A DNA stretch of 64,000 bases from Xestospongia bergquistia. Taxonomy: Eukaryota > Porifera > Demospongiae > Haplosclerida > Petrosiidae. Location of the stretch: NCBI GenBank assembly GCA_963965975.1, contig OZ014414.1, forward strand, positions 2,517,501 through 2,581,500, read 5' to 3'. Below are positions 347-60,716 of the stretch, piece by piece; the first letter of the stretch is position 1, and every line of letters begins with the position of its first letter. The notes beneath the pieces were generated by a model. That model ran no database searches, was not told where the DNA came from, and saw only the letters and a list, made by a program, of their open reading frames with translations. A program made the translations under genes and the position numbers.

Positions 347-1920
347 GTTCTCCAAAGATTTACGAGAATAGGACTATGTTTAAATTGTTAGGTACATAAA
401 ATACATGTGTATTTGTATACAACCACACCATATCTTTCGCTTTTCTCACTAATCTATCCTGATTTCATTGGTAATATAAGATATGTGATAGTTACTGCAT
501 GTAGTTACAAAGATCAAGCAAAATTAATAGTTAAGTCAATGGAACAAAGACTATAGAGACTTATGTTGTTGTTAGACAAGTAGTGTACGTGTATAAACTA
601 ATAATTTTAATTTATTTAACAAGTCTATACATTTTTGACAAAGTGTACATTCATATCACTGTATGATGATGTAGTTTTAGTAAAAGTTTTAAGTATAAAT
701 AATAGAGTGACTTTGTCATTCTGTGCTATTACACAAACTCCACTGTTGCCATATTAAGGCAACACTAATCATGACATGCATACTATAATACTTGTGTCAT
801 ATCACCTGTAACTCTAGGGGATATGAAGGTCTTCATGCAGCAGAACCTATAGTATATCATCCTTTCTTTTTATCCCCCATTAGACAACAAAAAAACTACA
901 TTTATTTAAATGATTCAATATTATTTTGAAAATATTGTAATTATTTATTGAAGATTTAGTTGTTTATAAAATTGTATAAAACCTTCTTCCTGGTCCCCTC
1001 TCTTGAAAATATTGTAACCAAATCAAAATCTTCACATTTGCATAAAAAATACAGCAAGATAAACAAAATAGCATGCACAAAACAATTATTTCAGCTTGTA
1101 ATATAACTAAAATGTGATAAGCAAACTACATTATATTTTGTGTGTTATAGGTGCAGTTATTCAGACAGATTATGTAGTGAGTCCTAAATAGTCACGTATC
1201 TTGGTAGCTATTGCTTTATTGTTAACAATAGGACCCTCAAGAGCATCAACCACTGTCTTCCAGGTAACTGGTGTTGACTGAGCATTTTTCCAGCATTGAA
1301 TAACTTCGTAAAGTTTAAGAATATTGCTATTACGACTTTTATCTAAACCATTCAAAACATGGTCAGGAACTTTCAAAGCCAATCCAACTTCCTTCCATTT
1401 GTCATCCATATTAGCTAATAGTGTAAGTAGATCACATCCATCAGGAGTACTGTTTAAAATATCTGGAATACCTGTGATATAAAAGTATCACTACAGTTAA
1501 CAATGATCTAAACAGATTAATAACATGATACATGATTACTATAACAATGCTAGAATTAGTTAACATCTTGTTATTCATGAAATGAGTGCATGTCCAGCAT
1601 ATACTGAGGAATCAACCAAATAAAATCATTACAAAGTTGCAGCATTGGCTATAGCATCATTACTACATAACAGCAAAGGCAAGTATGAACAGATTTGTCT
1701 AAAAGAAATACTTCTAGCAAACTATTAAAACTGCATATTATGTGATTTATATTCAGCCATTTTGTATTGGTTGTCTAATGACCAATATGACATTACTAGG
1801 ATTCCAATTTAGTAGGCATCCTGTATATAAAAGATGATTGCATAGAAATGATGTGTATTCAAAACGTTTGTCAGCTAGTGGTCTCTTTGGCAATGTTGGT
1901 CACTACTGTTAACAAATAGT
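280..1920. repeat. Segmental duplication block A (partner at 20.44-22.02 kb)
   Basis: Long stretches match 20,440-22,020 in the same order, for example ttaacaagtctatacatttt and the sequence around gtaggcatcctgtatataa. The block includes the Death-domain exon at 1,170-1,471. The partner keeps only the 3' part of that exon, interrupted by a MITE. A third, weaker relative surrounds the Death exon at 24.9 kb. Apart from the Death exon, no gene is seen in this block. Confidence 0.75.
1170..1471 (-). CDS. Death-domain terminal exon (probable C-terminus of the ROCO-like gene)
   Basis: This exon encodes a Death domain, a six-helix adaptor fold that binds other Death domains in cell-death and immune signalling. 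Visible hallmarks are the KWKEVGLAL helix-1/2 pattern, an ILKLYEVIQCWKN helix, and the conserved PVTWKTVVDAL segment with the core Trp. It ends LGLTT and a stop at 1,170. The 5' end is a splice acceptor (atatcacag then GT), giving an exon that enters in phase 1, like every other Death exon in the window. The preceding exon is probably the 3,969-6,105 exon, whose likely donor is also phase 1. That join is inferred from phase, strand and spacing only. Confidence is high for the domain and moderate for the gene model. Confidence 0.8.
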
Positions 1921-2048
1921 TTTCATATCTAATTTGTATGTGATACTACTAACAGTAAGCCTCATTAATATTATATGTTGATCACATGATATATACAAAC
2001 AATGTCTTTTGTGAAAAAAGTAGATTAGATGTATTCTTTTGAAATGAA

Positions 2049-2050
2049 TG

Positions 2051-2081
<31 letters not shown>

Positions 2082-2090
2082 TATTCTATG
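2049..2090. repeat. (AT)n microsatellite
   Basis: A simple run of at/ta dinucleotides with one interruption (acatatatatt). Confidence 0.9.
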
Positions 2091-2099
2091 ATGGAGCAT

Positions 2100-3320
2100 A
2101 TCAATCCAACAAATATCATGAAAACAAGAGAGAAATCCCATTGCTGGCTAGACACAATTGCACAAATCTGCTCATGCTAACATAGATATGAATTTTGGAA
2201 GACACAAACAATTATTCTAGAAAAATTATCTATAAGTATAAAAATTAATTAAAACTAGAACATTTATGTAGTCATTGCCTAGTACAAAAGTGATGCTATA
2301 AATAAAAAGAATTGTGGCCAATTAGCATGTCTATAAATATTGTTGCATATTAAACCTAAGAGTTAACATAACAATTATAATTTGTAGTTTAAAGGCAATG
2401 AAATAAGAAATCAAAACTTTATGCACCTATGATGCCAAGAAATATTGTCTTTGCAAGGACTTAAGTAGTTGTGTGTAAGTGCATATGGTTCCAATTGCCT
2501 AAGTACATGACATTGTTATAGTGTTCAAAATTGTCAGTCATGAACATGATATCATTAAATTTTAGCAAATATTCATAAATAGGTTATATGCAGGGCATTG
2601 TGATGATAGCTAGAACTTTGAATCAGTTGTCACAATTTTTGATTTTATATGTACTTTGGAATACTGAAGTATTAGTACAGAAAATCAGTGGGGGAGTTTG
2701 TAAACAGCATATTTTAACACCACTCCTAAACATTAAGTGTTATATTACAATATGTGGTTCAAAGTTCAGACACACTGACTGTCCCACTGGGCTTTTTTGT
2801 AGATTATAGCTCTGCTCAGAATGCATGCTGTGAATGTTGTAATAAATGCAATTATGTGTATTAACTGTCTCCATCCTCTCTATTCTGTCATTTCATTCCT
2901 AGATACTGCCTCAACTTGTTACAATCTGAAGTCTCTTTTGCTCATTGAACTCTCTCTTTCTTTCCCTTTTCTGTCACAGCCTCCTTTCTCTTAGCTTACC
3001 TTTACAATTTTCCCTCCTCTTACTTGGTCTACAATGACATTGTTCTCTATACTAATTAGCAATTTTAATCTCTCTTTCTGACTTCTTATCTGTACTCTTT
3101 ACTCTCCTTCATCAATTCCACTTACTCTCAGTGTTATTTAGTTATTTTGTATGTAGAATATATGTATATCTAGCTTTTAACTTAGTCTTTCATCTTATTT
3201 AATTTCACACTTCTTATAAACATCTGTTAGTTGTTTTAAATATGTTGGCTTTTTATTTCTGTTGTTGCTAAACATAGAGTAAACACTTTCACTGTGAATG
3301 TAACTGACACATGCTTTCCA
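2100..3320. other. Intron or intergenic DNA, no gene recognised
   Basis: Short ORFs here (for example 2,588-2,809 plus) lack coding character and splice context. The stretch from 2,870 to 3,130 is unusually CT-rich on the plus strand. If the ROCO-Death model is right, this region is intronic. Confidence 0.5.
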
Positions 3321-3323
3321 TAC

Positions 3324-3968: not shown

Positions 3969-6105
3969 TTTTATTCGGAAGCCATGGTTGTTGACGAGAA
4001 TTAACAGTAATCGTAAATAAAGTTTTGACACAAGAGAGGGTTTCCTTGTCTTCGTGCAAATTGCAAAAATGTACTAAAGATGTTGAGGTGCATTTTGGAA
4101 TCGTACAGTAAAAATATTCCTTAGGAATTTCTTCATTAGCCATGAAATTGAAGTGGCTTAAGATTTGCAGGATTCTGTTATGTACAATTTCACGTATAGC
4201 AGAGCATTGGTCGGGATCAGAACAGTATAATGCTATCCAACAAACCCCATCAACTAAAAAAACATTACCAGTATTAATGCGTAAAGCGATTGCATTCCGA
4301 GAACGTGGAATGGAACTTGAAAGATGTTTATCAATGAGTTGAAACTTCAGTGCACCTTCATAATTAAGAAGGCTGACAACCAATGCAGGGAAGACACCAC
4401 GAGGAACTGGCTTCATATTCCATGAGATAATTAGAGGATCAACTTTATTTTTAAAAGGAGCAAGCATTTGTTCGGTGACAGTAATATTAGATAGGACAGT
4501 TGGAAGAAAGTATTTTCCTTTTTCTGGTAGAGAACCCATAATAAATAAACCTGTCATTAACTTAACAAAATCATGTTCGGAAAAGTCAGAAGAGAAACCA
4601 TCTCTTAAGTGTGATGATAGTAATTTTATGTTAAAAGATCCTTCATCTTTGAGCTCATTATAATCTTTTGGAGGAATACGTATATTACACTTCAAATGAT
4701 TAATTGTGTCAGCAAAAAATATACTGATTAAATCAGAGAGCTTGTTAAAGAGTAGTTGTGGATGAAGGAACACAACATCAGACAAGATACTAGGAAAATA
4801 CAGAAAAATGGTCATATCATGGTAGTACATTAAGGCTGCCTCAATATCATCAGCCTCCATCTGCAAGCTTTTCCCAACCTCCAAACATTTTGATTTGCTT
4901 ATTATACCAACACTTGATTTAGATAGAGAAGACTTCTGATACTCATATAGTTCAAGCTGAAATAAGAACCACCTAACAGGAACTTTTACCTCAATGTAAT
5001 ACTGGCATATTTCACGACGTATGCGCTCAGCCATTTTTTCTTCATTGTCACCTCTGGCAATAGTATTAACAGGAAAGATCACTTCTTTTTCTGCTGTAAG
5101 ATGCATAATTGTGGTATCACTAAGATCGCATTTTTCTAGTGTTGATAAAAGACATGAATTTTTGTCTTTTAGTGACTCACCAGAGAGCCCAGGCTTTTTA
5201 AATTCATCATAGAATGTTCCTAGTGCTATGCAGCGTGGCTCTTGATAATTTTTAATGTGGCTGTTTGATAATTTTGGAGATGATAGTAAGCAAAAAGAAG
5301 CTTCAAGAAGTTGTAGATTTGTAAGCTGCTTTTCTTCTGGTTGTTCAATTTCATTTCCTTTAATACTATAAAAGAACTTAACTTTGTCATCAAGTCTTTC
5401 AGTTAGTTTGTGGGTGAGAATGTTGACAGAGTGATATTGTAACAATGCTGGAGCAATGTCTATAAATGCAGCCAGACCACCACTATTAATACCATATATC
5501 CAATGAGATTGATATAGTTCTTCAGACTTATCTACATGAGGTAAGAGGTCAACAATTTCCTGAGTTACAATAGCATCATGTCTTTTTGTGGTTGATGATT
5601 CTAAGTCATGACTGTCTGCTGTTTCTTCTTGTGGATTTGTTGGTTGATTATTTGATTCTTTTAAGGGATGAGTTATAGACATGCTTTCTGATGGTTGGTT
5701 TAGAGGCATGCTTTCTAATGAGCCATGTTCCTCTATTTTTTCTGATTTATGATGTCTGATGCCATCTTTAACTACTTGAGCAATCTTTTCTTTTAGAGAG
5801 TTATGATCTATTTTTTTCCATACCAAATCATGATCTACAATAGCAGGTATGACATCAACTCTTCTTGTTTCATAAGTAGCAACAACTGAAGTACTGTTGT
5901 TATCTTCAGGTGGTGGTTCATTATACAATAGCTTTAGAAATGATGATTTGCCAGTTCCAGGAGCACCTGAGACAGAAAACTTGGACCACTTAGCAGTGAC
6001 ATAACCTTCCTTCATAGCTTTGTCCAGTAACTTCTTGTTAATATCTAACACAGAATAAAAAAAGTCATATTGTGATTTACAAAAGGATCTATCCAGTGTT
6101 ACCAT
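3969..6105 (-). CDS. ROCO-like P-loop NTPase with COR-type domain, large exon
   Basis: This open exon encodes about 712 residues (725 if read through to the stop at 3,928). A Walker A motif, GAPGTGKS, lies at residues 47-54. A poorly conserved Ser/Pro-rich insert covers about 120-175. About 204-216 reads YGINSGGLAAF, at the place where ROC GTPases carry the DxxGQ switch-II motif, so that motif is degenerate. LGTFYDEF near 295 sits where a G4 motif would be. About 374-465 resembles a COR domain (VPVRWFLFQLEL, then YFPSILSDVVFLHPQLLF). The last 160 residues form a separate domain (SWNMKPVPRG, WIALY, a Cys-rich YFYCTIPKC...HFC) shared with the 55.9-56.8 kb exon. The start at 6,105 follows an in-frame stop and a tataaata stretch. 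A likely phase-1 donor (gtaagc) at 3,968 would bypass the stop and join a Death exon. Confidence 0.75.
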
Positions 6106-7318: not shown

Positions 7319-7582
7319 CTATTTTGTCTACTACAACTGGATCTTCTTGACTAACTACAACTGGATCTTTTGGAGTAACTACAACTGGATCTTTTGGAGT
7401 AACTATATCTGGATCTTCTTGACTAACTACAGCTGGATCTTTTGGAGTAACTACAACTGGATCTTTTGGAGTAACTACAACTGGATCTTTTGGAGTAACT
7501 ATATCTGGATCTTCTTGACTAACTACAACTGGATCTTTTGGAGTAACTACAACTGGATCTTCTCGACTAACTCCAACTGGAC
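7319..7582 (-). CDS. Repeat exon: eleven 8-residue repeats (DPVVVTPK/SQE type)
   Basis: The minus strand between acceptor (ttgttaag) and donor (gttagt) is exactly 264 nt, eleven 24-nt units, entering and leaving in phase 1. Units read DPVVVTPK, DPVVVSQE, DPDIVTPK and DPAVVSQE; the first is degenerate (PVGVSRE) and the last ends DPVVVDKI. The units form a higher-order order of SQE and TPK variants, which suggests expansion by unequal exchange. This is a low-complexity acidic/hydrophobic spacer, probably between domains. It follows the Death-like exon at 8.4-8.8 kb with matching phase. The opposite strand is also open because the unit length is a multiple of three; that reading is a shadow. Confidence 0.7.
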
Positions 7583-8397: not shown

Positions 8398-8778
8398 CTG
8401 GAATTGATTTCTTCAATTGGTCCATATACTTGTCATATATATCACGATTGCTTAAATGACCCCTGACCACATCAGAAACAGGCTTGAAACCAGCTCTATT
8501 GTTCCCAATTGTAATGACAGTTGGTTTATCTAATGCATTGATGACAGAACTCCAAGTGTAAACATAATCATCAGCATTATCTCCAGTTATCTCATCAATC
8601 AGAAACTCAAGCTCAGTAAAATTACGAAACCACACATTACTCTTTTTTGCATCTTTGAGAAGACGATTCGCAAAATAGTCACGCCATTTTTTGCAATCAC
8701 CTTTAATACCCTTTAACACAGTCATTAGATCAGACTTGTCAGGAATCGCACCCATAATTTTATCAATATCAATAATAT
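8398..8778 (-). CDS. Divergent Death-like exon
   Basis: This exon has 127 codons, phase 1 at both ends (acceptor tttccaatag; donor gtaaat). It begins DIIDIDKIMGAIPDKSDL, echoing the start of the Death exons (IPDILNSTPDGCDL). Its centre and end keep the family layout: KKWRDYFANRL for the first helices, YTWSSVINAL in place of PVTWKTVVDAL with the core Trp retained, then VSDVVRGHL in place of IATKIRDYL. It is longer than a normal Death domain owing to an insert after the Trp helix (PTVITIGNNRAG). I call it Death-like on this positional similarity; another helical-bundle family is possible. It sits between the 2A-signal exon and the repeat exon with compatible phases. Confidence 0.55.
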
Positions 8779-9140
8779 CTATTGGAAAAAGTTAGTAACA
8801 AGCAGTATATATACTGTTGATTATTTATTGAATTGAACTAGTTTGTATAATTATAAGCAATATTAACAATGACATAGCTACATGAGTGCTAGGAATAGTT
8901 GGAAAGCTGATTTTATCAACTAATGTCAACTAAACTGACACTAATTATGTTCTTTATAGATATATAATTGCTAATACAATTGTCATCTATTATTGACATG
9001 AGTAGCATTAGATTATTGCTTTATAAAATTCTAATTCTGGAATAAACTTTTCATCCGTAAATAAGAACAATTAATTCATCATTAATGACTAACAGGTATG
9101 CATAAAAGAGACATAGGTTATTCAAATATAGTAAAGTTAC

Positions 9141-9366
9141 CTGTTTTAGGCCCAGGATTAAGTTCAACATCTCCTGATAAAATAAGGAGAAGTAAGAGAA
9201 AGACTCCCAAAGAGAAAGTAATATCTTTAATCTTCCTGATAATAGTCACTCCATCTATACTACTACTGATCTTAGTTTTTGGAGTCTCTTTAGAATGAGT
9301 ACTGCATGACATCTGACGACACGTCCACAATCCAACACTCACTCTCCATTGAGCAATATCAATCAT
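9141..9366 (-). CDS. First exon with hydrophobic segment and 2A-like motif
   Basis: The exon encodes 75 residues from an ATG at 9,366. A basic stretch (IRKIKD, about 44-48) is followed by a hydrophobic run (LGVFLLLLLIL, about 53-63) and directly by SGDVELNPGP (64-73). The latter matches the 2A consensus D-V/I-E-x-N-P-G-P, at which ribosomes skip the Gly-Pro bond. The exon ends two residues later at a phase-1 donor (gtaact). In sea urchins and sponges, N-terminal 2A-like sequences have been reported on NLR-type immune proteins, where they can also act as signal sequences. The next in-phase exon is the Death-like one at 8.78 kb. If skipping works, the 72-residue leader would be released and the main protein would begin at the Pro. 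No alternative start is obviously better, though Met19 is possible. Confidence 0.75.
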
Positions 9367-10030: not shown

Positions 10031-10139
10031 ACTATTTCTAATCTAAGTTGACATGTTATTATTTTATTGCCTTTAGAAAGGTCATTTACAACAAGCAAAA
10101 GCTAATGTAGTAGTATGCTTGTTAATATTATGATTTATG

Positions 10140-11285
10140 TAGTTATACATAATTATACATTGTGGTTCAAATGAAACTGACAATGTCTTGACTCAATTTG
10201 TCAATTTTGTCCTCTTAATTAACAGCTGTATTAGTTCAGTATAATAAATTGATTAAGGGCATTGGAGTAATCAAATCCTTTTGGATAAGATTTTATTAGA
10301 TACTAGATCAACTATGCATACAAAATATAATAATAATTTTCCACGTTGTTATTAGTGTATGGACTAAACTTTTATTACAATCACCTCAAATGACCAAAAG
10401 AATAATCTACACTTATGTAAATATTAAAGGTCAGTCCAGTTCAGAATTCTCCTATTTACTTTTTATCATATTCATTATTTCATATGAAAGGTAATATAAT
10501 ACATCTGGTGTGCCTCTCATGGAAGCTATCACCAGATGTATCATATTATATTTCACATCATATCAAAAAAAATGAATATCTTTGATGTAACTGGTTGCAA
10601 CATCAATGACCCACCCACTTTTACAAAATAGAACACACTACATAGATTGAGCTATGAGGATTTAGTCTCAAACAACTACTTGATTAATAGAAGCATGTGC
10701 ATCTGTGGATTTTAGTCAAATTTTTTGGGCATTTTAATACCTCATTTATGGGTAAGAGTGTGATTGCAAATGAAAACGGTTTCTTCAGGTAATACAAAAA
10801 GTTGCTACCATATGTTAGTGAAAGCTTCAAGGGCTAGTTTCAGAAAAAAATGCAACTGTATTTTTGATGTAATTTTTATCAATAATAATTGAAGCAGCTA
10901 TTAATGTGACAAAATTCAAACATTCTAATTGGTTGGTCAAAAAGAGGTTTAAAGGTAACGAATAGAGTTACTAAAGCAAAAAAAGAAACTTAAATCTCAT
11001 CTTTTTAAAATTTTTGTTGCACTCATTACTATAACCACCATCTTTAGGGCACCAAGTTATAGTATTGGCAAAGTCTGTTAACAACATTTGTGATGACCAT
11101 ACTTATATTACATCTTTTAATAGCATACATTATACAGCACTTTGAGATTAATAAAAAAAAATTAATACTTCAGTGAATCATTTGTTGTTGTCAAGAAAAA
11201 AGCTGAAAACATGTTCTCATTCATTTATATGCCCTGACATTTTCCATAATGGTTGCTATTTTGGTTTAAGATCATAATTATAAGA
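10140..11285. repeat. 1.1-kb tandem duplication, unit 1
   Basis: The block from tgtggttcaaatgaaactgac to about tttccataatgg recurs in order at 11,365-12,480 with modest divergence and small indels. A foldback at 10,490-10,555 is preserved in both units. No coding exon was found. Shorter relatives of the left end occur at 13.33-13.50 and 20.26-20.45 kb. Confidence 0.85.
10488..10556. repeat. Foldback sequence (copy in unit 1)
   Basis: The sequence aatataatacatctggtg is followed about 15 nt later by caccagatgtatcatattat, making a long imperfect stem. The same stem is at about 11,705-11,770 in unit 2. Confidence 0.75.
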
Positions 11286-11359
11286 AATATCGTAACTACA
11301 TCTTCTACTTGTAAATGGTCTACATCAACAGGTACATTGATTGCTATCATGTTAATATT

Positions 11360-12490: not shown

Positions 12491-12749
12491 TAATTATTAG
12501 AAATATTGTCTAGTTGCTTGTAAATGCTCTATGTACCAGGTACACTTTCCTGCATTATGTGTCTAGGCACAAACTAAGTAGGGTCCACTTTACTGGACTA
12601 GTGCCATATGGTATTAATATTTGAAGATTTTAAACAGTGACGAGTTTAATACAACAAGTTTAGATGCAAATACCAGAATTATGATAAAAGTCCTTTACAT
12701 TCTATTTAAACCATGTCAATACATGGTAGACATGTATAGAGTAACTTCA

Positions 12750-13729: not shown

Positions 13730-14950
13730 TAAACATGAAAACCAGTACCTTTGATGCTTATCAATACAACATGTACAAGGAGTCTTACAACAAATAAGGT
13801 GTTTGAAATCTTTATCTGGACGACAGAACTGTGGCTGAGTTTTGTCTGGACATTTTGTATAGTAAAAACACTCATAAGGACTTTTACAGTAGTCATATGA
13901 CTAAACTTGTCAATAATACTAACAATTCCAACTTAGATTGGATTCATGTATTGCATGACATTTGTTTAAAAAGCCACAATAACATACCTCCATATATTTA
14001 ACTGAATGAACTAAAAGAATGTAGCCATCATCATCAAATACATAATGTAATTGCATTGCAATAATGTGGATGGTCTTTTGAAGGAGGAAGTTCGAAGTTG
14101 AATAAACCTTTGTTATGTAGAAAGTAGGCCACTTATGCAGTAAAGACACCTCAAAGAAGTGGCTTCTCATCCCCATTTAAAATTAGAAGGTCAACATTGC
14201 ACAATTATACTGTCTCAAAACAATTTTTTATTTGAACCCCACATGACTAATACAAAATCAGGAATAAAAGTAACATTACACATGGTTTGTTTTGTAGAGC
14301 ATGCTCAGTAATGATATACTAAATATAGAATATACATGATTAAATATAGAACACAAACTAAATATAGATCATACATAAGCTTTACAATTATTCTACAAAC
14401 ATCATTACTATATTACTAAATTGAGCTTTCATAGTTTAAGTGTCTTCTGTGACAGGAAGGACAGAAGGGAGAAGATATACTTATTGTCTGGTAAAGAAGC
14501 CAAAATATTTCCATTAATTTAAGAAAATCTTGCAGTGTAAACTAAGGATAGAATCCTTGTGACAAATGTGAATTGGGTGATGACATCAAGTCTCTTCAAA
14601 TGTTCCTTCATCTTTTAGTTCTTCACGAGCAGCAAGATTGTAGAGAGAGATACCTTTTCTTCCAATCAATCGACAGCATCACCAAATATGATACTGATTA
14701 GACCAGAGAGCCTCTCAAAGAGTAGTCAGAACAATAATTATGAGGAACTACACATGAAATTAGGTTTCTTCCTCTCTTAATAATGATCTATTCCAAGCTG
14801 TTTGCCTTCTCAAGTAAAATTGTAAAGAATATACTGTATAATATGTAAGTTGAACCAGGAGCTCATAAGCTTTCCTCTTATTGTCAAGAATAGGGTCCTC
14901 ATTACAAGAAATCATTGTTCCCCAGTTGATATCTTGTATCTTGTATTGGC
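13730..14950 (-). pseudogene. Decayed ROCO/COR relative with C-terminal Cys-rich domain
   Basis: Reading the minus strand in shifting frames recovers pieces of the 3.97-6.1 kb protein in the right order. FERLSGLISIIFGDAVD near 14.69 kb matches the COR segment FNKLSDLISIFFADTIN. GVFTA and FNFELPPSKD...NAITLC near 14.05-14.15 kb match the C-terminal domain. A Cys-rich ECFYYTKCPDKTQPQFC near 13.83-13.88 kb matches YFYCTIPKC...HFC. Several stops and frame changes separate the pieces, so it is a pseudogene. The final stretch ends CTCCIDKHQ and a gtactgg donor at the same point as the other copies. No Walker A motif was found upstream. Confidence 0.65.
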
Positions 14951-18735: not shown

Positions 18736-18873
18736 CTGTCATAAACAAAGATCTTGTCAAAGGTAAGTGTTTATTAACTCACAGGTCTTGATGGTAACAA
18801 ACAAGGTTGAAAGAAGTTATAATGACATCTTCATCCTCATTATTGTATTCATCACCCCTAGAGGTTATCTATC

Positions 18874-21289: not shown

Positions 21290-21394
21290 AGGTCCAGTTA
21301 TTCTCGCAGATGTGTGTCATACATCTGGTTAACATTTGCTTTTTTATTAACAACTGAACTCTCAATAGCAGTAACCACTGTCTTCTAGGTAGCT
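21290..21394 (-). pseudogene. 3' remnant of a Death-domain exon
   Basis: The minus strand aligns with the end of the Death exon at 1.17 kb. PAT-stop-KTVVTAIESSVVNKKA corresponds to PVTWKTVVDALEGPIVNNKA. The core Trp codon TGG is TAG here, and the helices before it are missing. A MITE (21,401-21,751) sits exactly at the break. It cannot encode a folded Death domain. Confidence 0.75.
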
Positions 21395-21400
21395 GGTAAT

Positions 21401-24861: not shown

Positions 24862-25169
24862 TTAATTATTAACTTCTGGGAGACCTAGATAGCAACGTAT
24901 TTCATTTGCTTTTGTTACAATTTTAATTCCTTGCTCAATAGCAGAGATCACTGTCTCCCAGGTAACAGGTGATGACCGACTATCGATCCAAGTGTTGATT
25001 ACTTCTGCAAGTTTAACTGCATTGCTGCAAGGCTTATGCTGTAAACCTTTTAAAACATTCATGCGAACTTTCAGGTAAATTCCAATTTCATTCCATCTGT
25101 CATCATTATCAGCTAATAGTTTAAGTACCTCATACCTATCAGGAGCACTTTTTAAAATATCTGAAGTAC
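24862..25169 (-). CDS. Death-domain terminal exon of the TIR-Death gene
   Basis: The exon enters in phase 1 after attttatag and ends at a stop at 24,862. It encodes 102 residues. TSDILKSAPDRYEVLKLL is the family leader, DRWNEIGIYLKV the first helices, NAVKLAEVINTWID the middle helices and SPVTWETVISAIEQ the Trp helix. The end reads IRCYLGLPEVNN. All core positions including the Trp are intact. It fits in phase and strand behind the linker exon at 28.36 kb and the TIR exon at 28.5-29.0 kb. Further small exons in the 3.2-kb gap are possible; one candidate is about 15 nt at 25,473-25,487, also phase 1. The order TIR then Death is the reverse of MyD88. Its role as an adaptor is inferred. Confidence 0.8.
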
Positions 25170-28360: not shown

Positions 28361-28399
28361 CTGATGATGTTTCTTGTCTAGTTTCAACTGTAGGTTGTT
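28361..28399 (-). CDS. 39-nt linker exon (TIR-Death gene)
   Basis: On the minus strand, aatgtatag precedes the exon and gtaaac follows. It has thirteen codons in phase 1 at both ends, reading EQPTVETRQETSS, a polar linker. It connects the TIR exon donor with the Death exon acceptor without breaking the frame. Confidence 0.6.
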
Positions 28400-28540: not shown

Positions 28541-28979
28541 CTAGAACCTTTTGCTTGATTGCTGCTAGTAAATGATTATACGCAAGATCCTCCAGTTTTG
28601 TTGTTTTAAAAGTTATATATTGAACGCTTGTCACTATAGACCGTATAGCCAAACCATATTTGCCGTTTTCATATTCTAGTTTGCAATCTCCAATGAGGAT
28701 AGAAAAGATAGGCTTTTTATATGTATAACTAGCATCAAGGATCTCTTTATGACATGATGGAGAATCGAGATATTCTTGTGTTATTATAGGAATGAAAGCA
28801 TCGCAATCTTTTACTTTTCTGGCAATATATACGTCCCATACTTCACCAATAGGAATGTCTTCTTCACAGATAAATACTTCAGCAACACCAGGTTCATGGT
28901 TGAGTTTTGTCTTCAGTTCTTTAGCAAACTGGCTGACTTTATCTATTTTAGTACTATAACTAATGAAGATCTTCATCAC
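28541..28979 (-). CDS. TIR-domain first exon
   Basis: This exon encodes 146 residues from ATG at 28,979 and ends in phase 1 at a consensus donor (ctag then gtgagt). It begins MMKIFISYS, the TIR box 1. VFICEEDIPIGEVWDVYIA carries the BB-loop region. VKDCDAFIPIITQEYLDSPSC is box-2-like, with EILDASY following. A Glu (E79-type position in DSPSCHKEI) lies where NADase TIRs keep their catalytic glutamate, so either a scaffold or an NAD-cleaving role is possible. The protein is cytoplasmic, with no signal or membrane segment upstream. TIR plus Death suggests an adaptor in pattern-recognition signalling. This is a domain-level call with high confidence; the biological role is inferred. Confidence 0.85.
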
Positions 28980-40910: not shown

Positions 40911-40976
40911 CAATTGAATAAGTGTCTGGAATTGGGTGAGAAATATGGTCATGTGAGGATACTGCATCCATTTGAG
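40911..40976 (-). CDS. 66-nt linker exon
   Basis: After atatatag and before gtatgt, 22 codons in phase 1 at both ends begin AQMDAVSSHDHISHPIP. It follows the Death exon at 41.2-41.5 kb in phase. A copy at 43,231-43,287 has lost 9 nt and gained an in-frame TGA. Confidence 0.55.
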
Positions 40977-41181: not shown

Positions 41182-41499
41182 CTTGATATTTAGAGTACAC
41201 CTCTTGTTGAGAAAGGCATCTACGTATTTTGTTTGTAGTTGAATGATGTGCTATGAGAGGTCCCTCAACTGAATTTATAATGTTTTGCTATGTTACTGGA
41301 CGTGACATTGTGTCCATCCAAATAGTCAATACTTCAACAAGTTTCACCATATTAGATTCAGCACTTTGAGATAAATGATCAAGAAGTGACCTTTGCACTC
41401 GAAGTGACAGACCAAGTTCATACCAACTGTATGTAATGTCTGCTTGTACATTGAGTAGATCATGTTTGGTAGGGACTTTTTGTAACATTGTAGTAATAT
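41182..41499 (-). pseudogene. Death-domain exon with a single stop at the core Trp
   Basis: The splice borders (attacacag; gtatgt) are intact, the length is 318 nt, and both ends are phase 1. The exon reads KHDLLNVQADITYSWYELGL, MVKLVEVLTIWMD and RPVT, then TAG at 41,288-41,290 where the other Death exons have TGG (Trp). Beyond the stop the frame continues in register through VEGPLIAHHSTTNKI to KYQ at the donor. Only this codon disrupts it. It is either a young pseudo-exon or a skipped or recoded exon; simple pseudogenisation is the default reading. The 3' linker exon at 40.9 kb is intact. Confidence 0.8.
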
Positions 41500-41590: not shown

Positions 41591-43230
41591 ATTACATTGA
41601 CATACTTACTATTTACAAATAATGAAAACAAATTGTGTTATAGACAGTTGGAAACCTTAGTATATAGCTAATATGACTGTAAAACTTAGAGACTATTTAT
41701 TTTATAAGACATTGGACAGGACATTATAAAGACACAAAACAACAAAAGCATCTATGCCTCTATCTCTAACATAGCTTTACCACCTTACATCCTTATAGAA
41801 TAAAACACTACCTTTGGACATATATACAGTACATCATTACATTACATGTAAAATCTTTAAAAATCATTAACAATAAATTAAAGTGATGTCTCTGCAAGTG
41901 CTGCAAGTTGGGCATAAATAATAAAGGTTTGAAAGCTTCTTTTAATCTATTTCTCCCAACTTTCCAGCCTTCTTAAAATTATTAAAATTTCACAAACCAA
42001 AGCCAATGAAATTTACCACTTTAAGAAACAACACAAGAGTAACATATTACAAATTGTACTCAAATTATTCTTTTACAAGAATTAATCATATACTTTTATA
42101 TTCTGTCTGTTGCTTTAAGAGAAGAAGGCAAATTGACCACAAATGTGAGGCTATTCTTTCTACCTCACCCATTGGATAATGATGTGACAGTATACATGTA
42201 CTTCTTTGCTGAGGAAGGTGGAGCTAGCATTTTTAGCTTAAAAGTACAATGAACCTAAAACTCTTGTAGACTTAAAGAAAAAATTACATTAGAAGATTAT
42301 AACATATACAGGACATTCAAAACAAGCATTTCTTCATTACTAACATTGACTAGTGTCACTTTATATAATAATGGAATTGAGTGGCTCTAAATCACAATAC
42401 TTAATTTGATTTTCATGTGTAAAAAAGATTCAATCCATTGACTCTTCTCTACAAAACATTTTTGTGCATGTATGTAATATCTGTGTAATAAATAATGATA
42501 TGGTCACTAACAAATATGGATGCAAGTAACTGTCAATCAAGATATTAACTAAGGACAACTTTTTTAGGATATATTACATGGACATATGATAATTTATCTG
42601 CTGCCATTTTTATGTAAATATGCTCTCACAGCAATAATTTATAGTGTAGTCAGGAGTGACCAGAGTTGTTAACAAGTGTTAGGTCAGGCCTAACAGTTCT
42701 TAGAGTAATAAGGGCAATCTAACTCAGCTTTAGTAACTAAATTATATGCATAAAACACAAAGGCTACATGATAGGCTCCTTGAAGTAACCTCTTACATAC
42801 TCAATTCAAACTTACAGTTTGTATATTTACAAGCAATAATAACAATACCTTACATGAGTGTTAGAAATAATTAGTGATCTGATTTTGTGAACTATTATCA
42901 CCTGGGCTGACACTAATTAAATTCATCATCATAGGTTAGTGAGCTATTACTACATAATTGTCAACTGTTATCAACATGAGTAGTGTCAGATTATGTTCTA
43001 TAAAATTATGTAGTGAAATATTTTTAATGGCTTCAAAAATAAGCTTACACACTCATAATGAATATACAAGTAACACATGCAACAAGTAATACATAATACA
43101 TACAATCATAAACAATGTGAGGACCTGCTTTGTGTGTCAAGCAGAATAACAAAACATGAGATTGAAACATGCTCGTGTAATTCAATGAATTAATAAGTAC
43201 AATGTATGTGGTTGAATACTATTGACATAC

Positions 43231-43287
43231 CAATTGAATGAATTGGGTGAGAAATATGGTCATGTGAGGATACTGCATCCATTCAAG
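43231..43287 (-). pseudogene. Decayed copy of the 66-nt linker exon
   Basis: Borders are retained (cttatag; gtatgt). Relative to 40,911-40,976 it lacks 9 nt and its second codon is TGA. Confidence 0.65.
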
Positions 43288-43725: not shown

Positions 43726-44039
43726 CTTGATATTTAGAGTATACCTCTTGTTGAGAAAGGAATTTACCTATTTTATCTGCCGTTGAGTGGTGTTCTACAA
43801 TAGGTCCCTCCACTAAACTTAGAATGTTTTGTCATGTTACTGGACTTGACATCGTGTCCATCCAATAAGTCAATACTTTAAGTTTCCATATATTGGTTTC
43901 AGCACTTTGAGATAAACCATCAAGAAGACTTGCATCTACTTGGAGTGGTAAGCCAATTTCACATTACCAATGTGCAATGTTTGCTAGTATATTGAGAAGA
44001 TCATGTAGGTCAGAAGCTTTTCTAACACTGTAGTAATAT
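43726..44039 (-). pseudogene. Death-domain exon copy, frameshifted, stop at core Trp
   Basis: This is the sister of 41,182-41,499 with the same splice borders but 314 nt. Small indels after the acceptor and in the first helix (a stop after HW near 43,965) break the frame. The Trp codon is TGA at 43,832-43,834, whereas the sister has TAG. The part after it (VEGPIVEHHSTADKI to KYQ) is still readable. Confidence 0.8.
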
Positions 44040-45970: not shown

Positions 45971-46286
45971 TATCTGAAATTTTTTTTCAGCTTTTTTTGA
46001 TGCAATCATGTAAAGATACTTGTTCTAATAATTGATCATGCTTTAAATTTTTTTTAAACCCTAGTACTTTGCAGAAATGTAGTTTGATTCCTTAATATCT
46101 GCAATGCTTTGGAGACGTCAAATAATAATTAAAGAACCTAGAGAGCTGAAACTTTTGAAAATGAAAGATGAAGTCAATTACTACAATTATACGGATGGAT
46201 TTATTTCTACAATAATATTTGACATTTTTACAAAGCTATAAACATTCCCTACTTTAATCACTATTATCATTACATGTTATACATAT

Positions 46287-46331
46287 AGTAGATCATGTAT
46301 GTCAGGGACTTTTTGTAACACTCTTGTAATA
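46287..46331 (-). pseudogene. 5' fragment of a Death exon
   Basis: Only the acceptor (attacacag) and about 45 nt corresponding to the leader (DITRVLQKVPDIHDLL-like) remain. The same intron segment flanks it as at 41.5 kb. Confidence 0.65.
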
Positions 46332-47443
46332 TCTGTGTAATAAATAATGATATGGTCACTAACAAACATACATGAAGTAACTGTCAATCAAGATATAAAC
46401 TAAGGACAGCTTGTTTAGAATATACTACATGGACACATGATCATTTACCTGCTGCCATTTTCATGTAAATATAGACTCTCAATACTATATCACAGTGTAG
46501 TTGGGAGTGACATGACTAGTTAACAAGTGTCAGGTCAACATTTCTTAAAGTAATAAAGGCAATCTAACTCATCTTTAGTGACCAGTAATGAATAAAACAC
46601 AAACTCTATATGATAGGTTCCTCCTTGCATACTCAATTCAGACTTATAGTTTGTATAATTATAAACAAGAATAACAATATCCTAGATAAGCGTTGGAAAT
46701 AATTGGTAAGCTGATTTCATCAATTAATATCAACCGAGCTGTTTTTTGACTCAACATATTTGACTGAATTATAACAAGTTTATTCTTAGGTAGGATAAAT
46801 GCACTGTCAGTATTCTGTCTCACTTTATGATTGCACTTGTCTTATTTGTTGCATTCTACATTATAACACTGTTTTTCTGTTTGTTGTTAACATGATTATG
46901 TATGAACTTTATCAAACTACTAATGCACATCAGTGGAAAGTAATGATCTTTTATTATTAGACTCTACCAGGTATGAATGTAATGGTTTGCTTGCTTGGTT
47001 GTCTTTGCAATTGGATGCTCATGAGCTCTTAGAAGAAACCACACCCACCATTGAAGACAAGTTCAGTTTTTGTGAACTTTTGTCCAATCATTTTCTGGTC
47101 ATTCTATCTATTTTATTAATTAAGACATGAGTTAAAACAATAGTTTTTGAGTAGTGAATTTGGTAAAAACTGTTCTAGAGCATACATGTTTTGTAAGGTC
47201 AATAACACTAATTAAGTTTAGCATAGTTTGATGAGCTATTATTGTTTATGAAATAGTCAAGACTATTTATGAAATATTAATTATTATGACTTATTATTTC
47301 ACTCTTCTACCCACTATAATAGTACTAATAACAAAATAGAAACAGTAAATCACAGTATCATAATTATAGAGCTAGTTTGTGCACTCAAATAGTGTGTTCA
47401 GTATGGTCAAAATAATTATTTAAGCAATTCACTAAGAGGTTAG

Positions 47444-47763: not shown

Positions 47764-47773
47764 CTCCCACTTA
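47764..47773 (-). promoter_or_regulatory. Polypurine tract
   Basis: On the minus strand the stop codon TAA runs directly into aagtgggag, immediately before the 3' LTR. This purine run is the expected plus-strand primer. Confidence 0.8.
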
Positions 47774-51715: not shown

Positions 51716-51819
51716 TCTTCACAACTGCAGTGAATCCAGAAAAGGTTTGTTTCGTGACAACACAGTTCTTCCCGCACTTCTGGCAGAAATAAGTTTCTCC
51801 TTTTTGACAGATTTACTTC

Positions 51820-51837
51820 GAGTCTGGGCTCATAACC
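51820..51837 (-). promoter_or_regulatory. Primer-binding site for initiator tRNA-Met half-molecule
   Basis: Directly inside the 5' LTR the minus strand reads GGTTATGAGCCCAGACTC, complementary to …CTGGGCTCATAACC, the anticodon stem-loop region (CAU) of a tRNA-Met. Priming from an internal tRNA-iMet site rather than the 3' end is the known habit of the copia/Ty1 group. Confidence 0.8.
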
Positions 51838-52157
51838 TGTTCGCAGGCGCGTTTGTAAATCCGTCACTGAGATATCTCAATAGACTCACAGGAAATCAAT
51901 TATTTTTAAAGATAGAAATATAGAATAGAATACACAAATCAGATAAGGCCCTACTTAAATACACAACTGAAAAGAGCAGAGCCTCAAGTCATAAGGACAA
52001 AGACCCAAACAAAAATATAACAAAAAACACAATAAACAAAGAGATGGCTAAGAGAAGGAAGAGCTAGGATGAGATACATTAATTAAAACCTATTAACACA
52101 TATACAGTAGTCAACACATGACACACAACTGCCTAATTACACACTCATATACCAACA
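51838..52157 (-). repeat. 5' LTR (copia element)
   Basis: Identical to the 3' LTR as far as read. It should hold the promoter on the minus strand. Confidence 0.95.
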
Positions 52158-52429
52158 GTTAGCAGCTTCCAAGGCCACTTGATAAAAACCAATATTTTTA
52201 TTGTTTATGAAATTGTCATCTATTATTAACAAGAATAGTGTCATATTATGATTTATAATATCATAATTCTGGAGTAAACTGCATATCATTACCAGCTGTA
52301 TAACTGTACATAAATGTTTCAGTATTCAGTTTTTTAATCACAATATCAATTGACAATAAAGTACAAAAGCCTGGCTACTACATCTATTAAAGACATATAA
52401 AACAAAAGCTAATTAAAGATATTTTGAAT

Positions 52430-55931: not shown

Positions 55932-56753
55932 CAAACCAAGGGAGTTGATGAGATTCATTGATGCAGGCAGTTATATGGTTGACACAACAAGTAACTGTTT
56001 TCCAGTCAGCATTTAAACGACAGAAATGTTCTGCAGGTTCATTATCAAGGGAGCATATTTTACAGTAAAAATATTCTTCAAGATTTTTAGAGTCAATCAT
56101 ATAACGGAAAATGCTAACAACTTCAAGAATGCCATTAAGGATTGCTTCACGTAAAGCATAGCATCTTTTTAATGGGTCAGTACTGTATATTGCGATCCAG
56201 CAATCCCCATTAATTAAAAGAATGCTACCAAAATCTGAGCATAATGTAATAGCATTGGGATTCCGAGGAGTGAGAGTTGATGGGTCTCTGAGTTGAAACT
56301 TTGGCGAATGATTACGATGTAAAAGGGTCATGACTAATCCATTGAACATTCCTTGAGGAAGAGGTGTCATATTCCATGACAAAATTAAGGGGTCATTATA
56401 TTGTTTAAAAGGAGCTGGTATAGATTTATATTCTGTAAACTGATTGATATCAGCTTGCATATCTTGAGCTGATGTGTGTGTTTGAAAATTTGCCAATGCT
56501 ACTTCATTTTGTTGTAGTTTTCGTTCTTGCTGTTCTTGTTGTTGTTGTTGTTCTTGCTGTTGTTCTTGTTGCTGCTGCTGCTGTGGTTGTTGTTCTTTAG
56601 CATCCTTCACTCCTTCAAATGACTTTGATAGACTTGCTTTACTAACAAAACCAGAAGATAGATTCATATCATTTACATGACCTGGAGGCACAGAACACGC
56701 ATGACTATGTAAAGATGATAATGATGTCCAAGATGTGGGTGGAGGTAAGCTCC
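55932..56753 (-). CDS. PolyQ plus ROCO-type C-terminal domain exon
   Basis: The exon has 274 codons, phase 1 at both ends (ttctattag; gtgagt). It opens GSLPPPTSWTSLSSLHSH and continues through a Gln/Glu tract of about 28 residues. It then carries the domain seen at the C-terminus of the ROCO-like protein at 4 kb: PAPFKQYNDPLILSWNMTP, GDCWIAIYSTDP, a Cys-rich YFYCKIC…HFC and PWFG at the donor. The P-loop and COR parts are absent, so this gene has combined only the last domain with a Death exon upstream (60.4-60.7 kb) through linker exons. The function of the domain is unknown; its Cys/His spacing could bind metal. The polyQ is encoded by mixed caa and cag codons. Confidence 0.7.
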
Positions 56754-56809
56754 CTAATAGAAAATAGTAAATAGTGACAGTAAAGCATTAGAAACTGCTA
56801 AATTTAAAA

Positions 56810-57760
56810 GAAAATGGAAAGGCTATCAAAAAAAAAGCTTCTGATCATTTCAATAAAATGCACAAAAGGCCATTCAGTTAAAAACTTACTGTGTATGTAT
56901 GTAAAATAATGCCATTACAATCTGAGAATGTTTCACTAGCTAGTAAATAGAGTTCTTAACATTTATGGGAGAAACCTTTCATCATTCAATGAGTTTGCGT
57001 TGGTAATATAATATAAAACCATCATTCATTATTGAAAATTAATTATAATTATGATAAAATACAACAAGCATCCAGTGTATCAAAATAAATATACAGTACA
57101 TAGAAATCAAAGTATATTGATCTAACATTTTGGTGCATCAATTGGAATCAAGTATAAGTCTTTTATCTGAAAAAATATTTAGAAATGTCAATGACAATGA
57201 TATTTTGATTAACAAAGTAAATGCACTGTCAAATCTTTCTCAATTACACTCAACATTATATACATATTTGGGACCACATGTTATCAGATAAAACACTGCC
57301 TACGTTAGTCTGGTAAGCTAGAACCTCTGTCTTTTTGATAAAGTGACGGATGATGGAGGGTTTAAATGTAAGTAAGGTTAATGTCCTATTGGAATGTGTA
57401 GAATATGGAATTGCCACGTGAGAGTTATAAATGGTGTAAACATAGCATTACTACTCTGTATTCAATGCATTCTAATGTAGTAGTAAGTTTAGTTCACTTA
57501 TAGACCTTTCACCACCCATCAGCTAATCAAAATGGAGGTAGTAGCAGCACAAAATACTTAAACACAAAATTAATATTATACATTAACTATGTTGATCAGC
57601 TTTTATGTGACTTCTTGTAAGACTATTCACCTCAAACATTTGCTAAAACTATAATGATAAAACATTATGCTCTTGGTATTGTGGTTACTAATTAGGGACA
57701 TCCATAATGTCATTCCTACTTATGTTTGTTTGAGATGTTATACCATCATTCCCACATTAT
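56810..57760. repeat. Duplicated linker-exon unit (decayed copy)
   Basis: Collinear with 58,440-59,400 (aaaggccatt, caattacactca, accacatgttatcagataaaac). The mini-exon equivalent at 57,125-57,168 keeps its acceptor (tttttcag) but has an in-frame TGA and no donor. Confidence 0.75.
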
Positions 57761-58643
57761 TTGAGGAATTTTAAAAAATTACTAACTAGTATAAGTAAGT
57801 ATTAAATATCCATAGTGTATGAGGAACATAATATGTATGAAGGAGAGCTCACTATTTCTAAAACATAAGATGAAGACAAGTTTGCACAGGCATTGAAATT
57901 TCATACCTTGTGGTAGCTCAATGCTATGTTCTCTCAACTTATACAATATGTATGGTGTGCTATTTGTATTCAGCACTATACTATATCTTATACTGACTGT
58001 TACAGACCCAACCCCAAACCCTAAGGTTGAGTATACAATCATATATCTAAATTAAAATGCATAGCTAGAATGAGCCACTCTTGTAATTAATGTTTCATTT
58101 AGTCATAAAATGGCATGCTATTAATATGTACTATTCAAGAACAGTTCATTGTTCAACATAATGTTTCTTGTACAAGTATAAGCAAATTTATTATCAATGT
58201 GTGGGCACAACCTTAGAGAATTCAGAGGATAACAAAGCTGTATTTGCTTGCTTCGACTAAATTAAACAAAATTTAAGCAGTCTATCATGGAACAGTATAT
58301 GCATGGAACTCTCAATATTTTCTATTTTCAGTTCTATTAAGACTAGGCACAGAATGCTCATACTAGGTAGAGATAATGATGATGTCTGAGTCGTAGAAAC
58401 ATGTGAGTTTCCTAATTGACAATGTTCACTAGTTATGCTAAAACATTAAAAACTGAATATTTACAAAATAAAGCCTATATTATGAAAAAGAAGGCTTCCT
58501 ATTCTTTCATCAAAATGCATAAAAGGCCATTTAGTAATAAACCTGCAGGGTATGCATGTAAGATGTAGTGTTACAGTATAAAAATACTGCATAAATATAC
58601 TATTAAGACTTATTGGAGAAGCCTTTCATTACTCAATGTGTTT

Positions 58644-58678
58644 ACTATGTTAGTATTATAATATAATACTAACATAGT
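58644..58678. repeat. 15-bp perfect hairpin
   Basis: actatgttagtatta and its exact complement lie around a 5-nt AT centre. Confidence 0.8.
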
Positions 58679-58785
58679 TAATAGTTATCGTTAATATTAT
58701 TTTTGGAAATAAGCTATAATTATGACATAATACAACAAAATTCCAGTGTACATATAAAATAGAAGTTACACGGAAATCAAAATAC

Positions 58786-58836
58786 CTGGATCTGATATTT
58801 TGGTGTGTGAACTGGTATCAAGTGTAACTCTATTAG
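58786..58836 (-). CDS. 51-nt linker exon
   Basis: It lies between ttttttag and gtattt, 17 codons, phase 1 at both ends, reading ANRVTLDTSSHTKISDP. Its surroundings are duplicated at 57.1 kb (dead) and, more distantly, at 59.65 kb. Confidence 0.6.
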
Positions 58837-59648
58837 CTAAAAAAATATAGAAATGTCAATAATAACAATAAATTCATCAATAACGACTTCATTTTTGAAT
58901 GTACACCTTGCCATTTCCAAACTTATATAAATATAAATAACTGCATTGGCAAGTCGTTCCCAATTACACTCAGCCCTAACATTACACATGTACTTTAGAC
59001 CACATGTTATCAGATAGAAGCATTGCCTAGCTACAAATATTTAAATTTGAACATAATTTTATTTGCTTTAGCAAATTTTATAATTCAAAGAAAATATTAA
59101 CAAATGTAAGGATGGTCATAAAAAATCTCCAAGAAGTTTAAAGTAGGAATGGCAGTACGGACATCCCTACATAATATGCATACAAAAGTACTTAAGACAA
59201 AATTGATGTTATATTTATTTCTATATTGTGCAGCATTTATTTGACTTTCAATGAGACTGTTTGCATTAAACTTCTACAACTATAATGATAAATAAACATT
59301 ATGCTCTTTATATTGTGGCTACTATGTAGGTATGTCCATATTGTCATCCCTACTTTGGGTTAAAAATGTATACTGCTATCAGAACCCACCCATATTAGTG
59401 AGCCACTCTCATAATTGCAATGTTTAATATATAAACAGGACACCATAATTGTGAACCAAGTTTTAAGAATTTATAGGATAACATAGAAACACAAATTTTA
59501 TGAAAAGTTATACGATATGAAAAGTGTTTATTATATATGGCAACATAAATCCATTAGATATTCTCAGAAAAAATGTTACAATTGTGATATTGGAGCAAAT
59601 TGTACAGTAAACATAATGTATTTATCTATAATATGGAAATATAAGTAC

Positions 59649-59705
59649 CTGAAGTAGATATTGTGATGTCTGGACTGAGATTAGATGGAAAACTTTGAAA
59701 TTCAG
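59649..59705 (-). CDS. 57-nt linker exon
   Basis: It lies between ttacctgtag and gtactt, 19 codons, phase 1 at both ends, reading AEFQSFPSNLSPDITISTS. It follows the Death exon at 60.4-60.7 kb. The sequence 3' of the exon on the plus strand (tttccatgtcactgaaacc, tacatatgtactttgg) resembles the flank of the 58.8-kb exon, so the linkers arose by local duplication. Confidence 0.65.
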
Positions 59706-60428
59706 CTACAGGTAAAAAATAAAAAAAGTTATCAATGATAATAATGATAAATGAATTGATTATCTCATTTTTGAGACTTGACTTGAAATTAATAAAATTA
59801 TTAGCTATGCTGATGTCAATATTGTGCAAACTCAATAAAATTGCATTATCAGTTCTTTCCATGTCACTGAAACCTAATATTACATATGTACTTTGGACAA
59901 AATTAATTACTATTTTGACAATGTTAGTTAACTTGTACTTTTGGTATATAACATGCACTAATTATGCAAACTTAACTCATAACTTGGTATTATAAATTTT
60001 TAGTAATATCTATATTTGTGAATATCTTTATCTTATGGCCTTCTTCAGTTCGAATTTTAGTAGTGGTATAGTCATTGTCACAATGGTAATATTAGTAAGC
60101 AACACTATTGTGGATATCAACCTACTATGATCTAACAAGTGACAGTTTTAAATTAACACATAAGGATTACTTTCAAGCTAAAATAAAGGTGCTAATTTTC
60201 TTGTATGTACATGGCACAAGTTTGAGACATACTTGGATACCCAAAACAAAATAAAAATCATTCTAAATATAAACTACATTTTTTGTATCTTATCACAAAC
60301 ATTAATCACAAAAAGGGTTTGTCAAGTAATCACAAAATTTGTACTTCAAACCTTCTGCAGCATAAACATACTGACAGTGGTAAGATGTTCATTCTTAATA
60401 AAACAACCACTTAATAATAATCACTCAC

Positions 60429-60716
60429 TATGTTTAAGATTTTGACGCATGTGATTAGCTATCTCTTTCTCGTTAACAGGATAACTCTCAATAGCAGTAA
60501 TAACCGTTTTCCAGGTAACAGGGGATGGCTTAGTCTCTTTCCAGAGTTCAATGATTTTCTTGAGTTTCTTGTATGAGAAGCCCGGGATACATTTTAAGTC
60601 ATCCAATGACTTGCGATCCACCCGTAAAGATAAACCTATCTCGTACCACTTGTGATCAATGTCCATTAATAGGTGGGCTACTTTTTCACTGTCAAGAGTT
60701 GAGGTACCGGAAATGT
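60429..60716 (-). CDS. Death-domain exon of the 56-kb gene
   Basis: The 96 codons run from a phase-1 acceptor (attatctcag) to a consensus phase-1 donor (cata then gtgagt). SEKVAHLLMDIDHKWYEIGL, DRKSLDDLK, KLKKIIELWKE and SPVTWKTVITAIES give the complete Death pattern with the core Trp. It ends EIANHMRQNLKH. If the donor is not used, a stop follows at 60,421, which would make this a terminal exon like those at 1.2 and 24.9 kb. The donor match and the in-phase exons downstream favour an internal exon. The first exon upstream was not found. Confidence 0.8.

Follow-up and report, generated by a model that had tools for sequence, protein, structure and literature searches.

The 64,000-nucleotide (nt) stretch of the sponge Xestospongia bergquistia analyzed here (contig OZ014414.1, positions 2,517,501 to 2,581,500; hereafter the window) carries on its minus strand a series of exons for Death-like, TIR and Roc-COR-like modules, a 2A-like leader and spacers. 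With modest confidence, we favor the reading that these exons are parts of innate-immune or cell-death genes built of class 1-1 modules, that is, modules flanked on both sides by phase-1 introns, and that the genes were remodeled by exon-level and segmental duplication and then decayed.

Exon borders were read on the minus strand for the 15 exons of an initial annotation of the window, which become 16 with the addition of the Roc-COR exon. Nine of the 16 have one open frame only: the 2A leader, Death 8.4, the 24-nt repeat exon, the Roc-COR exon, Death 1.2, Death 24.9, the TIR exon, Death 60.4 and the polyglutamine (polyQ)/COR-B exon (numbers in names are positions in kb). For each border, all AG or GT dinucleotides from the domain core to the nearest in-frame stop were listed and scored with a generic textbook animal splice matrix, used without training on the window. 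Each border had one to seven candidates, with a single candidate only at the 2A donor. The top-scoring site was in phase 1 at all 15 borders of the nine exons, with the modules thus flanked by introns of the same phase, and the nearest competitor in another phase, at Death 60.4, scored 1.24 against 3.84. Two acceptors have a second candidate that is likewise in phase 1: 56681 outscores 56753 at the polyQ exon, and 7576 slightly outscores 7582 at the repeat exon. Exon borders also coincide with domain borders, the Death-like and TIR exons holding one such domain each. For nine distinct introns all in phase 1, at a rate of 0.3, P is ~2e-5, a value that is only nominal because paralogy among the Death exons lowers the count of independent events, and that count was a guess; the window contains no clean control gene for the local phase rate. 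Six of the nine exons and the five short linkers, 11 internal exons in all, have lengths that are multiples of three, as follows from the equal phases of their two borders. An earlier exon scan was set aside as circular, its matrices having been trained on the exons of the initial annotation itself.

Scoring of the five linkers relied on matrices trained solely on the long exons, with the plus strand and 15 shuffles as controls. No plus-strand segment and none of the 15 shuffles equaled the score of linker 54.0. For linkers 28.4, 40.9, 58.8 and 59.7, the plus strand held 16 to 156 equally good open 1-1 segments and the shuffles 14 to 136 on average, and these four are therefore unproven. All five lack stops in both phase 0 and phase 1, and their coding score is higher in phase 1. 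Linker 40.9 gains mild additional support from a near copy at 43287-43231, in which 55 of 57 aligned bases are identical and one 9-nt gap is in frame. The region of linker 58.8, together with the start of the polyQ exon, is tandemly duplicated (56686-59355, 69-76%), the copy being without the linker donor.

The initial annotation had assigned phase-1 borders to its listed exons and had described any of them as free to be dropped, duplicated or joined. The first statement holds for 10 of the 16, namely the nine long exons and linker 54.0; Deaths 41.2 and 43.7 have phase-1 borders but are broken, and the other four linkers do not rise above background. The second is restricted to internal exons, given that Deaths 1.2 and 24.9 carry a stop codon and the 2A exon carries the start codon (ATG).

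Deaths 1.2 and 24.9 share 73% nucleotide identity that ends at the exon. The exon yielded a z score of 57, compared with –0.1 and –0.3 for the 300-nt flanks upstream and downstream, respectively, and 0.3 for 600 nt upstream. A segmental copy of the Death 1.2 region (0.3-2.1 / 20.1-22.4 kb; 68% identity over 1055 nt and 76% over 265 nt) keeps its flanks, with z values of 27 downstream and 51 upstream for Death 1.2 and the relic at 21.3 kb. Because this segment, diverged to about the same degree, retains much of its flanks, the missing flanks of Deaths 1.2 and 24.9 are not readily explained by age alone. The exon-limited homology of this one recent pair would favor use of one module in different architectures, independently of its neighbors, within the provisional gene limits.

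Birth and death of modules, as proposed in the initial annotation, was borne out by tandem copies together with dead or truncated copies at 46.3, 43.7, 42.5, 41.2, 21.3 and 14 kb. Several of these had been overlooked, namely the fragment of a Death exon at 46.33 kb, the 42.5-kb copy, which consists of upstream intron plus acceptor, the Death relic at 21.4 kb and the decayed COR sequence at 14.7-13.7 kb. Four copies of the Death-41 unit are present, at 46.3, 44.1, 42.5 and 41.5 kb; two of them are truncated and two frame-broken. Among their six pairs, identity is 88-95% in the upstream intron and 46-84% in the exon part; the lowest exon identities belong to pairs with the 42.5-kb copy, where exon homology stops almost at the acceptor. 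Between Deaths 41.2 and 43.7, 63 of 252 sites differ in the exon core, against 18 of 228 in the adjoining introns (P 4e-7), a test that left out a gappy intron stretch at 41109-41010 (18 of 85 differing) and the exon ends (2 of 19 and 4 of 46); with the gappy stretch included, the introns differ at 36 of 313 sites. The rates of synonymous (dS) and nonsynonymous (dN) divergence for this pair were 0.38 and 0.24, respectively. Positive selection as the sole cause of the exon divergence is not supported, given that synonymous divergence is also high, and exon and introns therefore seem to have different histories. Either the introns of the 41-46 kb array seem to have been homogenized or the exon cores replaced, and gene conversion fits better than intron-to-intron swapping because the change-over in Deaths 41.2 and 43.7 lies inside the exon. 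Much of the visible turnover is duplication of segments including introns, followed by decay, rather than swapping of cassettes.

The same conserved Trp codon is a stop in three decayed Deaths (TAG in 41.2, TGA in 43.7 and TAG in the 21.3-kb relic). A quirk of the genetic code was considered and rejected, since a single change from TGG to a stop gives only TAG or TGA and decay suffices. Sequence at 8839-9048, upstream of Death 8.4, is repeated at 42816-43007, 46647-46734 and 52200-52280 (74-79%); these relatives sit upstream of Death-41 type copies and near a Copia element, and the sequence may be a mobile element or a shared piece of intron.

The identities of the modules vary in certainty. 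The TIR exon matched Pfam TIR_2 with 54.7 bits, above the cut-off of 28, and a PDB sequence search with it gave no match at E 10. Its SCHKEI motif resembles what we take to be the region of the SARM1 catalytic glutamate, and by analogy its product may be an NADase. The Roc-COR exon has a visible P-loop and a COR-A match (E 7.3e-6) below the Pfam cut-off; the Pfam scan gave no Roc profile match, and the COR-B label of its C-terminal part is our assumption. A PDB search with this exon returned one chance-level match, to a designed protein (E 0.45), and an AlphaFold2 model from two alignment rows was unusable (mean predicted local distance difference test score, pLDDT, of 34). Scans with this exon yielded 14 pattern stretches in prokaryote contigs and four in viral contigs, none of them a relative, as expected of collections of prokaryotes and viruses. 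The polyQ/COR-B exon shares 41.6% identity with the C-terminal end of the Roc-COR exon, and a dN/dS of about 0.4 for this pair indicates constraint.

Deaths 1.2, 24.9 and 60.4 are mutually homologous (tblastn E 2e-24 to 6e-14), and Death 8.4 matches Death 1.2 with E 2.8e-4. Pfam Death matched Death 1.2 below the cut-off (E 0.012) and gave no match for Deaths 24.9, 60.4 or 8.4. With a four-sequence Death profile, FADD Death domains were the top five PDB matches (E 0.026-0.048); with a three-sequence profile, two uteroglobin chains outranked FADD. An AlphaFold2 model of Death 8.4 from four rows was too poor (mean pLDDT 56), and a Foldseek search with it found nothing at E 0.001 or better and no Death fold among the matches listed. 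Death-like is therefore the honest label for these exons, least certain for Death 8.4. The leader exon carries GDVELNPGP after a hydrophobic run, with the only NPGP in the six frames of the window, and so has the form of a 2A-like leader, in which D[V/I]ExNPGP closes a hydrophobic N-terminal segment. The repeat exon is an in-register coding minisatellite of 24 nt, or 8 codons, and the spacer between Death and Roc-COR is likely to be polymorphic in length.

The 2A leader, Death 8.4, the repeat exon, the Roc-COR exon and Death 1.2 can be joined in one frame of 1082 amino acids across four introns of 362, 815, 1274 and 2497 nt; since an in-frame join is a consequence of the phases, it adds no independent evidence. 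The TIR exon, with or without linker 28.4, would presumably join terminal Death 24.9, and a third gene may include Death 60.4, the polyQ/COR-B exon and linker 54.0. In MyD88 the Death domain is N-terminal to TIR, whereas here the TIR exon lies upstream of Death 24.9, if the two form one gene. All three models are inferred, that of the 1082-residue product being the most compact. The earlier proposal that several genes use different selections of exons is supported in that related Death modules occur in different settings, with gene limits that remain provisional.

Of the other explanations, it is very improbable that the phase-1 borders were simply picked by biased reading from many possible splice sites. 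Such a coincidence would suit the four linkers that score like background; for the long exons it is strongly disfavored, given that a generic matrix ranked the phase-1 site first at every border of the exons with one open frame. An ordinary tandem family, in which genes or multi-exon segments were duplicated from an ancestor with phase-1 introns and later lost exons without any lone exon moving, is a less probable reading of some weight. The segmental copies (41.2/43.7 and 0.3-2.1 / 20.1-22.4 kb) indeed carry introns, and phase-1 introns commonly border modules in Metazoa (PMC8001218; here and below, cited papers are represented by their accessible portions). This scheme is hard to reconcile with Deaths 1.2 and 24.9, which share the exon only although the segment of about the same divergence keeps much of its flanks, and whose upstream modules, Roc-COR and TIR, are unrelated. 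The initial annotation had envisaged an active exon-shuffling system, and one or more long transcription units with alternative use of cassettes, many proteins per individual and copy number varying between individuals would go with it. The location of all reliable modules on one strand in a common phase and the array of near-copies in the middle of the locus are compatible with such a system; we nevertheless consider it improbable, as two Death cassettes of the array are broken, a recent Copia element is inserted at 47.4-52.2 kb, and the presence of one start and two terminal stops points to separate genes. A design of exon shuffling with birth and death survives in the modularity, in the exon-limited homology of Deaths 1.2 and 24.9 and in the tandem copies and relics, and fails as an account of much of the turnover by cassette swapping.

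Several points weigh against our favored reading of class 1-1 genes remodeled at the exon and segment level. Segmental duplication including introns accounts for much of the array, the limits of genes from 60 to 24.9 kb were guessed, and the Death and Roc-COR assignments depend on sub-threshold profile matches. The flank control is a single, imperfect segment pair: at the 21.3-kb relic, a repeat that occurs also near 27.5 kb has taken the place of the first part of the exon and of the upstream intron next to it, and homology on the upstream side begins again ~190 nt from the exon. Homology between Deaths 60.4 and 1.2 and between the Roc-COR (ROCO) and polyQ exons is likewise confined to the exon and is uninformative because these pairs are too old (dS of about 1.0 and 1.2, respectively). 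Constraint on the terminal exons 1.2 and 24.9 is not visible, with a dN of 0.39 close to the dS of 0.41. The 3′ edge of their homology lies near the stop codon, where there is no known intron, and intron-to-intron exchange alone therefore cannot explain it. We conjecture that both terminal Deaths descend from internal cassettes that ran past a lost donor; Death 24.9 reads TATCTAG and then GTCTCC at the place of the supposed donor.

If remodeling at the exon and segment level is correct, the minus strand of the window would hold some of a set of clustered, related genes for innate-immune or cell-death signaling, with the 2A leader, Death, spacer repeat, Roc-COR, COR-B and TIR modules each on one exon and phase-1 introns between them. 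Exon-level and segmental duplication would have copied Death modules between genes, many copies then decaying, and the common phase would preserve the frame when duplicated Death modules are gained or lost. Death and TIR domains form signaling oligomers, and Roc-COR proteins dimerize and bind GTP. The Roc-COR and TIR proteins might recruit partners through their Death domains and serve inside the cell as sensors or adaptors in infection or cell death, and the 2A leader, by analogy with sea-urchin NLR leaders, might send part of the Roc-COR product into the secretory path and part to the cytosol. A more speculative history, to which we give rather low weight, is that an intracellular family became modular in the manner of secreted proteins: a phase-1 2A leader would have seeded the 1-1 design, Death, TIR and Roc-COR exons would have been exchanged by recombination in introns, and introns at 41-46 kb would have been homogenized with old exon differences kept. 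Homogenization of introns with persisting exon differences is known from major histocompatibility complex genes.

Modules of class 1-1 are described as mostly extracellular and mainly of beta structure, with some intracellular examples in the Ig/fn3 proteins of muscle (PMC8001218). Symmetrical phase-1 modules and the coincidence of exon and domain borders are common to that metazoan shuffling and to the window, whereas the modules here, the leader exon aside, are apparently intracellular, partly helical Death, TIR and Roc-COR domains. If our reading is true, this family would be an exception to the extracellular beta rule. The sponge Amphimedon has 357 NCOA6-clade TRADD-N proteins with up to half unique architectures, mostly with Death-like units (PMC8195603). 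Death-like units with variable partners are found in both systems; no TRADD-N turned up in the window, in which no search aimed at it was made, and the accessible account of Amphimedon gives no intron phases. Again if true, phase-1 modularity would offer a mechanism for the many unique Death-like architectures of Amphimedon and other invertebrates (PMC8195603).

Sea-urchin NLR proteins have 2A-like leaders that are reported to act in both skipping and targeting (PMC4981915); like the leader here, these are hydrophobic N-terminal segments ending in D[V/I]ExNPGP before a Death-containing protein. Downstream of the leader, the sea-urchin proteins have Death-NACHT-LRR, whereas our model has Death-repeat-Roc/COR-Death; NACHT and LRR were absent from the families listed for 27 Pfam-scanned queries, a subset of the open reading frames (ORFs) of the window, and the sea-urchin order of NACHT and LRR after Death was thus not seen among them. 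Phase-conserved modules in intracellular or immune genes have precedents in clam IAP genes and in the LRR exons of brown-algal ROCO genes. Hard clam IAP genes (PMC7831173) resemble the present locus as apoptosis genes in tandem arrays with exon-borne domains, conserved phases and domain shuffling, and differ in having BIR and RING modules with their own phases, described with whole-genome and expression data. Brown-algal ROCO genes (PMC11378527) are likewise Roc-COR immune candidates with proposed exon shuffling and pseudogenes, the shuffled unit there being a 72-bp phase-2 LRR exon in an LRR-ROC-COR structure only. Novel combinations of Death/TIR-type connector domains are shared with another invertebrate, amphioxus, in which the rearrangements were deduced from gene models and cDNA, the accessible account making no argument from phase (PMC2575513). 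The TIR2 genes of the sponge Dysidea are described, in the accessible part of the source, as distinct from TLR-like and MyD88 TIR. Among the open-access matches listed, judged by title and the opening of the abstract and with most subscription journals outside the coverage, no paper treated the phases of introns bordering Death, TIR or Roc-COR exons in sponges.

Table 1 Long exons, linkers and decayed copies in the window
Feature	Position	Strand	Remark
2A leader, first coding exon: hydrophobic run and GDVELNPGP, phase-1 donor	9141..9366	-	
Death-like exon 8.4, divergent, class 1-1	8398..8778	-	tblastn to Death 1.2 (E 2.8e-4) and alignment
Tandem-repeat exon, 24 nt (8 amino acids), class 1-1	7319..7582	-	
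Roc-COR-like exon, class 1-1: P-loop GAPGTGKSS, COR-A, COR-B-like C-terminal part	3969..6044	-	
Death 1.2, terminal exon with stop codon, phase-1 acceptor	1170..1471	-	
Death 24.9, terminal exon, presumably of TIR gene, phase-1 acceptor	24862..25169	-	
TIR exon (TIR_2), class 1-1	28541..28978	-	
Death 60.4, internal exon, class 1-1	60429..60716	-	
polyQ and COR-B-like exon, class 1-1	55932..56753	-	higher-scoring phase-1 acceptor at 56681
Linker 54.0, 57 nt, class 1-1, well supported by splice score	53951..54007	-	
Candidate linker 28.4, 39 nt	28361..28399	-	not above background
Candidate linker 40.9, 66 nt	40911..40976	-	not above background; near copy 43231-43287
Candidate linker 58.8, 51 nt	58786..58836	-	not above background; duplicate near 57.1 kb without donor GT
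Candidate linker 59.7, 57 nt	59649..59705	-	not above background
Death 41.2, broken: TAG at conserved Trp; phase-1 borders	41182..41499	-	
Death 43.7 pseudo-exon: 1-nt deletion, in-frame TAA, TGA at conserved Trp; phase-1 borders	43726..44039	-	
Truncated copy: upstream intron, acceptor, few exon bases	42459..42586	-	
Truncated copy: upstream intron and first part of Death exon	46277..46435	-	
Death relic, 3′ part, in segmental copy of Death 1.2 region; TAG at conserved Trp	21316..21396	-	
Decayed COR/COR-B copy with stops	13739..14725	-	tblastn

The DNA of the window is intron-rich, animal-like and AT-rich, with a G+C content of 28-33% in 15 of 16 blocks and of 42% in the block that holds a retroelement. 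This Copia-type element with long terminal repeats (LTRs), at 47444-52157 on the minus strand and the occupant of that sole G+C-richer block, is apparently complete with a long open frame; its 320-bp LTRs are 100% identical, its target duplication is 5 bp (GTTAG) and, to judge by these features, it is a very recent insertion. ORFs resembling a transposase or integrase (PF24764, E 6.4e-25) are present at 38042-40346 on the minus strand, with a sub-threshold helix-turn-helix match upstream (E 4.3e-5). On the plus strand, an interrupted stretch at 63220-63400 resembles, to judge by its motif, the C-terminal dimerization region of hAT transposases.

At 17425-18738 on the minus strand are pieces resembling a ubiquitin-specific protease, with stops, a weak UCH match (E 0.065) and what we take to be a His-box pattern; they are probably a decayed gene. 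The region 31881-36322 contains ORFs resembling a cell-surface protein: fn3 is matched very weakly near 36.1 kb (E 0.084), a stretch near 32.1 kb looks like a transmembrane segment, and an EYEY-bearing tail lies near 31.9 kb. A single fn3-transmembrane-TIR receptor gene running from 36 to 28 kb was considered and set aside, as no convincing chain of splice sites was found. A 1.2-kb tandem duplication with 85% identity occupies 10120-12544, parts of it reappearing near 0.1-0.3, 13.3 and 20.2 kb, and tandem arrays of 152-bp and 43-bp units are located at 18869-19568 and 29060-29431, respectively.

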